Assembly (NCBI GenBank): GCA_004293485.1
Contig: RDYW01000031.1
Coordinates: 1-64,000 of the forward strand
Length of the DNA stretch: 64,000 nucleotides
From: Sphingobacteriales bacterium
GTDB lineage: Bacteria > Bacteroidota > Bacteroidia > Sphingobacteriales > Sphingobacteriaceae
Reading direction: 5' to 3'
Shown: positions 18,453 through 55,400 of the stretch, piece after piece
Numbering within the stretch: position 1 is the first letter of the stretch
How the letters are laid out: every line of letters starts with the position of its first letter
Notes under the pieces: generated by a model
Seen by the model: the letters and a program-made list of their open reading frames with translations, nothing else
The model's database searches: none
What the model was told of the DNA's origin: nothing
Translations under genes and position numbers: made by a program

Positions 18453-18550
18453 GGGCGTTCCCCCCAAAAGGGGCGGGCTATCCGTTGCAAGTCCTTAAAA
18501 ACTTCGTTGCTCTTCGTTTTCTGCGGGCTTTCCACTACTATCCCTAACGC
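18453..18550. repeat. palindromic intergenic element, copy 1
   Basis: A 98-bp GC-rich island in AT-rich surroundings, starting GGGCGTTCCCCCC and ending CTATCCCTAACGC. The ends GCGTT/AACGC are inverted. A CCCC-aaaa-GGGG hairpin lies near the left end. The motif GGGC-N-WTCC is repeated three times (gggcgttcc, gggctatcc, gggctttcc). The copy at 52118 shares length, ends and the CTWTCCGYT core. Such elements are, as I recall, dispersed in Sphingobacteriaceae genomes. This copy ends 15 bp before the dehydrogenase ATG. Confidence 0.7.
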
Positions 18551-18565
18551 AACTTGTGCTACACT

Positions 18566-19849
18566 ATGAAAAAACCAGTAATTGCTATCATAGGTTTAGG
18601 TTACGTAGGGTTACCCTTAGCAGTGGCTTTTGCAAAATATTACAACGTAATAGGCTTCGATACTAACCCAAGCCGTGTAACCCAACTACAAAACGGTAAC
18701 GATACCACTTTCGAAATTACTAGCGAAGAGCTTTTAGAGGTTCAAAAAAACAACAAAAATAATATTGGGCTAACCTGTACCCCTAACCCCAAGGAGCTTA
18801 AAAAATCCAATATTTTTATCATCACCGTACCTACACCAGTTGATAAAAATAACGGCCCCGATTTAACCGCCCTCATTGGCGCAAGCCAAACCGTAGCACA
18901 ATACTTAAAACCCAACGACATAGTAATATACGAAAGCACCGTATACCCTGGAGCTACCGAAGAGGTGTGCGTACCTGTTTTACAAACACAATCGGGCTTA
19001 ACCCATAACCAGCAATTTTTTACAGGCTATTCGCCCGAACGTATAAATCCTGGCGATAAAGTGCGCACTTTAACCAATATATTAAAGATAACTTCAGGCT
19101 CTAATGCAGATACTGCCGAAAAAATAGACCAACTATACAAAACCATTATTACCGCAGGCACTTTTAAAGTAAGCAGTATAAAAGTTGCCGAAGCCACCAA
19201 AGTGATAGAAAACTGCCAACGCGATGTTAACATTGCTTTTGTAAACGAGCTTTCTAAAATATTTAACCGCTTAGGGATAGAAACATACGAAGTGCTAGAA
19301 GCCGCCGCCACCAAATGGAATTTTTTAAACTTTACGCCAGGTTTAGTAGGCGGCCATTGCATAGGGGTTGACCCTTACTACCTAGCCCAAAAAGCCCAAG
19401 AAGTAGGCTACCACCCCGAAATTATATTGGCCGCCCGAAGGCTAAACGACGGCATGGGTACCTATATAGCCACCGAAACCATTAAAACAATGGTTAAAAA
19501 AGGTATCAATTGCAACAAAGGCAAGGTATTAATAATGGGTTTTACCTTTAAAGAAAACTGCCCCGATGTACGCAATACCCGCGTAATTGATATGGTAAAC
19601 GAACTAAAAAAATACCACCTTAACCTAAGTATTTACGACCCACTAGCCAACACCCACGAAGTAAAATCCGAGTACGGTATTGATTTAATAAACCAAATAC
19701 CTACCCAATATTTTGATGCCATAATTATAGCCGTAGGCCACACCCAGTTTAAAACAATGGATATTGTGGCGTTTAAGAAAAATAAAAATGCCGTTATTGT
19801 AGATGTAAAAAGTATTTTAGATAAACACCTTAGCGATTTTAGGTTGTAA
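18566..19849 (+). CDS. UDP-N-acetylhexosamine 6-dehydrogenase (WbpO/TviB/VipA-like)
   Basis: An NAD-dependent nucleotide-sugar dehydrogenase that oxidises C6 of a UDP-HexNAc to the uronic acid. It shows the Rossmann GLGYVGLPLAVAFA, ESTVYPGATEEVCVPVL, GYSPERINPGD and the catalytic cysteine in GGHCIGVDPYYLA. These fit the TviB/WbpO branch rather than UDP-glucose dehydrogenase. The track begins at a TTG (18554); the ATG at 18566 gives the natural MKKPVIAIIGLG start and is preferred. Its leader contains the palindromic element. With the aminotransferase and acetyltransferase upstream it could serve a diacetamido-uronate pathway. Confidence 0.93.
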   Translation: MKKPVIAIIGLGYVGLPLAVAFAKYYNVIGFDTNPSRVTQLQNGNDTTFEITSEELLEVQKNNKNNIGLTCTPNPKELKKSNIFIITVPTPVDKNNGPDLTALIGASQTVAQYLKPNDIVIYESTVYPGATEEVCVPVLQTQSGLTHNQQFFTGYSPERINPGDKVRTLTNILKITSGSNADTAEKIDQLYKTIITAGTFKVSSIKVAEATKVIENCQRDVNIAFVNELSKIFNRLGIETYEVLEAAATKWNFLNFTPGLVGGHCIGVDPYYLAQKAQEVGYHPEIILAARRLNDGMGTYIATETIKTMVKKGINCNKGKVLIMGFTFKENCPDVRNTRVIDMVNELKKYHLNLSIYDPLANTHEVKSEYGIDLINQIPTQYFDAIIIAVGHTQFKTMDIVAFKKNKNAVIVDVKSILDKHLSDFRL

Positions 19850-52117: not shown

Positions 52118-52217
52118 GGCGTTTTAACACGCTTTCCGCTATATCTTTTTTTGTTTATATGCCCCAACCCAAGGGGCTGCTTTAGCAAAAAAAGGATACC
52201 GCTGCAATCGTTAACGC
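52118..52217. repeat. palindromic intergenic element, copy 2
   Basis: A 100-bp element beginning GGCGTTTTAACACGCTTTCC and ending GCAATCGTTAACGC. The ends GCGTT/AACGC are inverted. A stem pairs ATCTTTTTTTG with CAAAAAAAGGAT. The loop holds a second hairpin, GCCCC-aacccaa-GGGGC. It shares length, ends and a CTTTCCGCT core with the copy at 18453. It lies between murQ and the GH2-like gene, about 200 bp before the latter. The track's small minus ORF here is a shadow of the repeat. Confidence 0.7.
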
Positions 52218-52387
52218 ACCCCAAAGGCATAGCATTGGGCAAAAAACCAAGGTATTGCCACAAAGCGGCTTTATTTAAACAGTAATGTATAACAGCTACC
52301 AATACACAAGTTTTAACCTATTTTTATTAGGCTGTTTTTTTACCGCCATTTCACAAATCGTAGCACCTAAAAAATGCTTTAAATTTT

Positions 52388-52421: not shown

Positions 52422-55400
52422 ATGAAAACTACTTTCGTTGCATTATTGGTATTCAACCTATTGTTTATTAATGCCTCTGCACAACAACCCATAAATAACT
52501 ACCCCATACAGCAGCTTACAACTACCCGAGCCGAAATTTTATTAAACAATAAATGGCTTTTTCAGCCAGCTATAAACCAAGCCACCGAAAAACCCTTAGC
52601 CGCTAATTGGGATAGCATACAAGTACCTTCATCTTGGTACTCCAAATTCGAGGTCGATTCTTTTAAAGCAAGCAACATCCAAAACAAGCAACAACTCAAA
52701 AACCTTTCGCGGGCTTGGTACCAAACTACCGTATTTATCCCAGCCAACTGGAAAAATAATAGCACCCTTTTACAACTATGTAAGGTTTCTACCGATGCCA
52801 TTATTTACATAAATGGCCAGCAAGCGGGTACAATACAATGGTACACAGGCCAAGTTGATGTTTCTAAATATGTAAAATATGGCCAACAAAACCAAATACG
52901 CATATTGGTAATAGCCACCGCCAACGAAGGCGAAATCCCAGTATTAATGGGTACGGCCACCACACAAGTTACGTTTACCAAAGCAACTTTAGAAACTAGG
53001 GGCATTACGGGCGATGTTATTTTATCATCCCACCCAAAAAATACGTTTATAAACGATGTATTTGTACAGTCATCCGTAAGGCAAAGTAAAGTGGCGTTAG
53101 ATGTAGAAATTATTGGGATTAAAAAAGCCTCCAATGTTTCGGTTACTGCGCAAATGTGTAACCAACAAGGCCTTGCCGAAAAAACATTTACAACAAATAT
53201 CAGCCTTATGGCGCAAGATACCCAAACCGTAAAACTAGCCTTCGATTGGCAAAACCCCCGTTTATGGGATTTGGATAAACCCGAACTTTATACCCTAAAA
53301 CTTAAAATTGTAGGCAAAAGCAGTATTGATGATGAATATGCACAAGCGTTTGGCTTCCGCGAATTTTGGATTGATGGCAAACATTTTTTTCTTAACGGAA
53401 AAAAAATAAACCTTAGGCCGCATTTATTTGTAGGTGGTAATGGGATGGACGAATTGATTGATGCCAGTATAGACGGTATCCGTAAAAACGGTTTTAACAT
53501 TAGCGAAATATGGCCCAATAACTTTGATAAACGAGGTTTTTTAGAACACTCGGAGCAAATGATGGCTAGGGCCGATAAAAAAGGCTTTTTATTAATGGGT
53601 GTAGCCCTGCCTTTTATAGATTATTTGTTAGATAAAAGCTGGAAATTTCAATGGGATAAACCCGAGGTAAAAATAGCTTACGAAAAACGTATGCGTATTG
53701 ATTTACGCCGCAACCGTAACCACCCATCGGTAGTAATGTGGACTACATCGGGCAATTTTTTCGGCGATACGCAAGATCAAAACCCCTTTAATATAGGCCG
53801 TACCAATTGGATAAAAAATAACCCACCGTTTCAAAAAAATGCCACTGCGGGCATCGAAGCCATCAACATTATCAAAAAAAACGACCCTACCCGCCCCGTG
53901 TTTACCCACCACGGTACTTACGTAGGCGATGTGCATACGCTTAACTTTTACCTTGGTTTTTCGCCACTGCAAGAGCGGGAAGAATGGATGTCGTTTTATT
54001 CCCAAAATGGGCAAATACCTTTTATTGGGATAGAGTTTGGCACACCTTTGTATTGCGATTTTTTGCGTGGCCGCAATGGCTTTGGCAGCAATATTAAAAC
54101 CGAACCGCTGATAACCGAATTTACAGCCGCTTACCTAGGCGATAAAGCCTACCAAACCGAGCCTGCCTATTATAAAAATTATATCAAAAATAATTTTATC
54201 TCGGGGCAAACTTACCGAGAAATGGGAAGTTCATCTATCGAAAAAATATGGTCGTTTCAGCAATTACAAGCCCTATTTACTAAAAACACTTGGCGCAGTT
54301 GGCGGGCGTATGATATGCCTGGTGGTATGCTTCCTTGGGCAAGCGGACACGGCTATACCCGTACCGATAGTGCCAATACGCAGGTAAAAATGCCGCCTTT
54401 TGCATTAGGGCGCAAAGGTTGGTATTACCCTACTGCCATATATGCAGATATTTATGATAAACAACCGCCAGCCTACACCATACAAGAGGGCGGCAAAGCA
54501 CTCGTTCAAAATAACAACGCTACACTGGCTTATATTGCAGGTGCAAGCGAGGCTTTTACCGAAAAAGCACATTCGTTTAGCCCCAGCCAAGTGGTCGAAA
54601 AACAATTATTCTTTTTTAACGATACCCGCCAAGTGCAAAAATGTGTGTGGAGCTACAGCGTTTCGGTAGCTGGTAAAACTATCTCCCAATATGCTGGCGA
54701 ATGCTTGGTGCCTGTGGGCGATAAAAAAACCGAACGTATTTTATTTACTATTCCATCTCAAATTACTGGCTTTAAAGCCGATGGCAACGTAATATTAAAT
54801 GCACAAATTGGAACCATAAACCATACCGATACTTTGCATTTTAGGGTTTTTAATAAGCAAGCCATTACTGGCGATAAACAAGTTTATATTTACGACCCTG
54901 TGGGGAAAACCAGCCAAATGCTTGTAAATTTGGGATATAGCCTAAAAACTTGGGCTGGTGAAGCTAATATTCCGTTAATAATTATTGGCCGAGAGGTGCT
55001 TTCCCAAAAATATAAATTGCCATTGCCCTTGCAAGCATTTATACAAAACGGAGGCAAGGCAATTGTATTTAACCAGCAAGATAGCGTGTTAGAAAAAAGC
55101 GGCTTTAGGGTAGCCAAATATGTTTCTCGCTACGTTTTTCCTATCAAAAACAACCCCATTACCCAGCAGCTAGATGAGCTAGATTTACGCAACTGGGCAG
55201 GTATAGGCACTATAAATACCGCCTACCCCGATTATATGAACAATAGCTACCAAAAATCGCCCGACGATTCGCCCATTTACGGCTGGCACTGGGGCAACCG
55301 AGGTAGTGTAGCTACCAATGCAATAGAAAAACCACATCACAGCGGCTGGAAACCTTTATTAGAATGCGAATTTGATATGGCTTACTCGCCTTTAATGGAA

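Follow-up and report, generated by a model that had tools for sequence, protein, structure and literature searches.

A 100-bp palindrome in a Sphingobacteriaceae genome belongs to Flavo-1, a family listed as small RNA that may be a dispersed DNA hairpin

What is the imperfect palindrome that lies at 52118-52217 of the window (the whole stretch of 64,000 nucleotides analysed here), and what kind of entity does a sequence like this, which encodes nothing, represent? An earlier note, made from the letters of the window, described a 100-bp palindrome running from GGCGTT to AACGC with a T7/A7 stem and a nested GCCCC/GGGGC hairpin, and we find each of these parts exactly as described (Table 1). What that note missed is that the element belongs to a catalogued family: cmscan matches Rfam RF01705 (Flavo-1) to the minus strand at 52121-52245 with 51.3 bits (gathering score 42), and this is the sole above-cut-off Rfam match in the window. 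Taken by itself, the copy is not striking. Its folding energy is unremarkable (as DNA, the plus strand reaches z = -1.5 and is matched by 14 of 200 shuffles), and the bare end pattern is too unspecific to serve as a test of family membership, since GGCGTT-N60..89-AACGC matches the genome 33 times as against 19 times for the same pattern read backwards. Because the folding energy is unexceptional and the end pattern only weakly enriched, the reality of the element rests on its family, and through the family it is beyond chance: the Rfam match exceeds a curated cut-off, the genome holds 23 copies, 14 control genomes hold none, and the stems covary extensively.

Table 1. Positions of the Flavo-1 copies in the window, of the parts of the 52118 copy, and of the insertion-sequence-like repeat in related genomes
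Feature	Position	Strand	Basis and remarks
Second, divergent Flavo-1-like copy	18454-18550	-	cmscan 18467-18564(-), 29.9 bits, under the cut-off of 42; 7/7 stem pairs (L053)
Flavo-1 hairpin element, core copy	52118-52217	- (folding strand = minus)	cmscan RF01705; 7/7 tested stem pairs form (L039)
Left terminal stem GCGTT	52119-52123		partner 52213-52217; family alternatives GCGTG/CACGC, GCGCT/AGCGC, GCATT/AATGC, GCGTA/TACGT
Right terminal stem AACGC	52213-52217		partner 52119-52123; in other copies (G004/G006) interrupted by an insertion sequence
Left inner arm ACG-C-TT-TCC-GC-TAT-ATC (stem segments and mismatch loops)	52129-52145		covarying stem; Rfam structure line
Right inner arm GAT-ACC-GC-TGC-AA-T-CGT	52195-52211		covarying stem; Rfam structure line
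T7 of distal stem	52146-52152		pairs with A7 at 52187-52193; read from sequence
Nested apical hairpin GCCCC-aacccaa-GGGGC	52161-52177		GCCCC 52161-52165, GGGGC 52173-52177; sequence and fold
Insertion-sequence-like repeat adjoining Flavo-1	G004: L327, L329, L352, L356-L362; G006: L353, L363		

The second copy in the window is 97 bp long, lies directly upstream of an open reading frame that starts at 18567, and has the same ends as the 52118 copy, with CTATCCGTT vs CTTTCCGCT at 52118. On its own it fails the gathering score of RF01705 (29.9 bits), although its stem is the same. The earlier note had placed the two copies in one class with constant ends and a variable middle, and this description needs to be adjusted: the two copies do share their ends, but across 91 copies of the family the ends change together in matched pairs; the apical part does vary freely, and is often made of other small palindromes, but two internal loops within the stem remain constant. 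The distal stem differs among copies and yet is palindromic in most of them.

These statements come from the arms of 91 copies, taken by sequence anchors that are independent of pairing; a handful of divergent, unanchorable copies were left out, and the few copies that the pattern mis-anchored were kept in the count as failures. At seven stem positions 613 of 637 standard pairs form, compared with a mean of 446 and a maximum of 476 over 2000 shuffles of the partners. Counting only the 37 distinct arm pairs, 237 of 259 pair cells form (shuffle maximum 187). A single stem position is occupied by three types of pair in nearly equal numbers (A-T 31, T-A 30, G-C 29), and the terminal stem covaries as well (GCGTT/AACGC 45, GCGTG/CACGC 5, GCGCT/AGCGC 2, GCATT/AATGC 1, GCGTA/TACGT 1), so that the conserved, covarying secondary structure by which RF01705 is defined is present in these 91 copies and seven pairs. 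What stays constant is unpaired: one C.T mismatch plus two 3x3 loops, which read TNC/TNC on the strand of the earlier note and GNA/GNA on the opposite, Flavo-1 strand. Of the two loops the outer is strict and the inner one looser; the anchors were biased towards these letters, though the Rfam consensus agrees with them. With DNA parameters, 78 of the 91 copies give a better fold for the Flavo-1 strand than for its complement, an asymmetry that would point to one folded single strand (ssDNA or RNA) over a double-stranded binding site.

Now we consider how the family is distributed. The window's genome, a member of the Pedobacter group of the Sphingobacteriaceae, has 23 Flavo-1 matches (19 of them above the cut-off), and its congeners have 6, 7, 8, 9, 39, 44, 52, 106 and 119 copies. 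Matches occur in 45 of the 297 genomes of a phylum sample, with the highest copy numbers in one genus (g32), which we infer to be Flavobacterium. Copy number is lineage-specific. Within the window's genome the 23 copies are essentially all intergenic (one overlaps an open frame of 142 codons, itself doubtful), show no excess between convergent genes, and have no preferred orientation relative to co-directional neighbour genes (6 same, 9 opposite). Plasmid and phage collections gave no match to the one 78-bp Flavobacterium Flavo-1 query used.

Orthologous sites with and without the element, as expected of a mobile element, are found both in the window's genus and among Flavobacterium species, and either gain or loss could have produced them. 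At one Flavobacterium locus (L170, in G061) the core is present, whereas in six other species the flanks are continuous and the core is missing; the two states differ by ~70 bp. Another locus (L166) is empty in four species. Three loci of the window's genus are filled in the window's genome and in G016 and empty in G006, where the missing segment is longer than the palindrome (~180 bp or more). The more distant G004 is also filled at the L036 locus, and for this reason loss in G006 is probable there. A constant 180-bp unit with outer arms, considered from a few loci of this genus, is not borne out by the copies in G017. In that genome 20 copies have flanks that are unrelated outside ATTTGGGCGTT...AACGCAAA and a median best-paralogue core identity of 0.90, which together indicate recent spread. 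Movement is slow in a quartet of species (G009, G011, G013, G014; 85-95% identical), because five loci are common to all four; other loci are confined to some of these species. Candidate empty sites in the quartet were set aside, their flanks being rearranged or filled by other inserts.

At one intergenic site, Flavo-1 is present in three species (L095, L094, L118) and the fourth (L142, G014:C1:3211349-3212202) has instead a ~440-bp insert that encodes an apparent four-helix-bundle protein of the 23S intervening sequence type. A copy in the window's genome (L044) and one in G016 (L311) have near-identical left flanks and cores and diverge strongly just to the right of AACGC; the G016 copy carries an extra CCTGCCTACGCAGGCAGG palindrome inside its left end that L044 lacks. 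Around the 52118 element itself synteny is broken and the neighbourhood is rearranged in relatives: murQ and the gene at 52422 lie on different contigs in G016 and G006, which leaves no orthologous site to compare. At the sites compared in Flavobacterium and the window's genus we saw no transposition event and no target-site duplication; at 73-90% flank identity no duplication is definable, and no autonomous partner with the same ends was found. A lack of further copies and of empty sites among relatives would have spoken against the earlier note, and both exist. Its idea of a palindrome that is mobile but non-autonomous is probably correct in kind, given the further copies, the lack of coding content and the filled and empty sites.

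Nine Flavo-1 copies of two related genomes also adjoin an insertion sequence. The first sign of it was a pair of G004 copies followed by identical sequence from the same base. The insertion-sequence-like repeat, with the end GTTAGTTTGCATAAGTAAAAAATAATACTG..., has eight copies in G004 and one in G006, both of them MAGs, and 9/9 of these are joined to nine different Flavo-1 copies at the same base, after CGTTAAC and before C. About 210 bp from its end, the G006 copy contains a decayed 21-residue reading frame, FTIIAGIDVSKLKLDMSIVTH, which we take to resemble the start of IS110-family transposases; this very short piece has no Pfam, NCBIfam or PDB match. The non-coding end of the repeat contains CGTCGTTAA, identical to the Flavo-1 target stem (9 nt; 3 of 500 shuffles are as good), as expected for an IS110 guide RNA. 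An exact genome-wide scan for an intact copy returned only assemblies that were already known. IS110 elements are described as using a guide RNA (PMC11208160, PMC11187229) and REPs as targets of IS110/IS1111 insertion sequences (PMC1525189; ISPpu9, PMC8450116). The insertion sequence in Flavo-1 is probably of IS110 type and specific to Flavo-1, which we offer as a lead and not as proof.

Which enzyme might mobilise the hairpin itself? The earlier note suggested a RAYT-like enzyme, and the obvious candidate is TnpA_REP subclass 2.6 (RAYT group 5), which is specific to Bacteroidetes and is reported to have atypical flanking structures with repeats elsewhere in the genome (PMC6006769). Genomes rich in Flavo-1 often carry subclass-2.6 genes, and among the ~25 subclass-2.6 loci that we collected Flavo-1 lies at about 0.5-0.7 kb at three independent ones. 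Over the whole collection, however, only 3 of ~21 independent loci have Flavo-1 within 1 kb of the gene, and so does 1 of the 19 Y1 loci used as controls; when the flanks of 19 RAYT loci are read directly, most genes are hugged by other, unrelated palindromes, e.g. GCTAGCGCGAGCTTCTAGCTCGTGCC. Flavo-1 thus does not flank a cognate RAYT gene as the REP of a RAYT does. Nor does it have GT[AG]G at the hairpin foot, where the listed copies begin TAGCC/GGGCGTT; this foot is also missing from subclass 2.6 REPs (PMC6006769). Two genomes with at least 15 Flavo-1 copies each (G257 and G177) have no Y1_Tnp match at all, and the window's genome has no RAYT of the subclass-2.6 type. Subclass 2.6 as the cognate enzyme, suggested by the few nearby pairs, was accordingly rejected on the 19 flanks and the scans of loci and controls; that Flavo-1 is the REP of these RAYTs is highly improbable, and the mobilising enzyme is probably a different one. 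The subclass-2.6 genes of Pedobacter and Flavobacterium (flanks L244-L280) have several distinct gene-specific palindromes of their own, together with tandem duplications of gene fragments.

The Y1 genes of the window's genome amount to two. One is a subclass-1.2-like Y1_Tnp (G000:C22:16992-17333, L054; motif YIKNQKSHH). It lies just downstream of a different frame's 3' end, and that frame looks like the C-terminal portion of a Type IIG enzyme. The other is a Y1 transposase (HUH) domain (G000:C83:3447-3620, L055) within a continuous frame of >1,050 codons that resembles a Type IIG restriction-modification enzyme. The subclass-1.2-like gene was rejected as the mobiliser: genes of the same general type occur in G038, which is without Flavo-1 in the phylum sample, and the type is absent from several Flavo-1-rich genomes.

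It is important to set this picture against the way in which the family is currently listed. Rfam gives RF01705 the type 'Gene; sRNA', the family has been described as a probable RNA with no known function (Weinberg et al. 2010, PMC2864571), and a review counts it as one of the most abundant families of sRNA (PMC9029176). If Flavo-1 were a set of many paralogous genes for small structured RNAs, this would explain the strong covariation and the GNA/GNA loops, both typical of structured RNA; the loops, in suiting RNA too, count against a mobile hairpin. It would explain far less well why some genomes have at least 119 copies and some relatives none, why the copies have no orientation bias relative to neighbouring genes, and why orthologous sites differ in presence and absence; in a F. 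psychrophilum transcriptome study, moreover, Flavo-1 hits lie in sense or in antisense without distinction, and many fall outside transcribed regions (PMC9723704). The filled and empty sites, the flanks and core identity in G017, the intergenic and unoriented copies and the published transcriptome therefore favour dispersed mobile DNA; we regard an RNA gene family as unlikely and the listing as sRNA as probably wrong. The segments missing from G006, which exceed the palindrome, and some similarity of the outer arms (such as CTAAGTT, shared by the two arms of the orthologue in G004) would suit a larger MITE belonging to a DDE-type insertion sequence, a MITE of which the palindrome is the mere centre. 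This is quite unlikely: flanks in G017 and Flavobacterium diverge at the palindrome ends, one insertion measures ~70 bp, and G006 probably lost its L036 copy rather than never having it. We consider it very unlikely, finally, that Flavo-1 is a dispersed protein-binding or transcription-terminating palindrome maintained by selection and spread by occasional duplication; intergenic location and symmetric structure speak for such a role, but the window's genome shows no enrichment between convergent genes, copy number varies ~20-fold within the genus, and the conserved strand-specific mismatches would be needless in a double-stranded site.

The reading that we consider rather likely is that Flavo-1 is a non-autonomous dispersed DNA hairpin, REP-/MITE-like in its behaviour, and not an RNA gene. 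As such, the Flavo-1 strand would adopt its fold in single-stranded DNA, as during replication, for instance, and the looped stem would be recognised by a transposase or nuclease that acts in trans and moves or copies the unit. Compensatory change conserves the stem on either side of the two constant GNA/GNA internal loops, which favour the fold of one strand over the other; the apical part, free to vary, gathers other small palindromes. Once dispersed, the element serves as a landing site for the IS110-like insertion sequence. A bolder form of this proposal, in which the transposable hairpin is moved by a non-Y1/RAYT enzyme (perhaps through an RNA or ssDNA intermediate) and a dedicated, RNA-guided IS110-type insertion sequence lands on it, is possible though doubtful. 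The openly searchable literature that mentions Flavo-1, in the parts accessible to us, contains no treatment of it as a mobile element. If the dispersed-hairpin reading is true, a family annotated as sRNA across many Flavobacteriia and Sphingobacteriia would become mobile DNA, and sRNA counts and annotations would change with it. It would also supply a test case for how long imperfect hairpins retain specific internal mismatches, possibly a new, non-RAYT route for the spread of short palindromes, and, through the insertion-sequence landing site, a direct link to RNA-guided target choice by IS110.

Among known systems, Flavo-1 resembles MITEs in being non-autonomous, intergenic and bounded by short terminal inverted repeats, and differs from them in having no autonomous relative that shares its ends, no established target-site duplication, and ends that covary and are not fixed. 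With REPs and REPINs (RAYT, TnpA_REP) it shares the short, intergenic, imperfect hairpin with conserved mismatches, the many copies, the lack of autonomy and the role of a site-specific insertion-sequence target; it departs from them in lacking the GT[AG]G foot, in its greater length (about 76-130 bp), in its other conserved internal loops and in the absence of an associated RAYT among those found. The insertion sequence, for its part, behaves like IS110/IS1111 elements that insert into REPs in that it occupies one exact Flavo-1 position in all of its copies; the target here is Flavo-1, and the transposase is known only as a decayed 21-residue fragment. The closest comparison is with Rfam RF01705 itself, which is the same sequence and structure family and whose cut-off the 52118 copy passes. 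To that model the copies of the Pedobacter group add the terminal stem GCGTT/AACGC and longer, nested apical hairpins, and where the Rfam entry describes a probable RNA, the evidence gathered here points to dispersed DNA.
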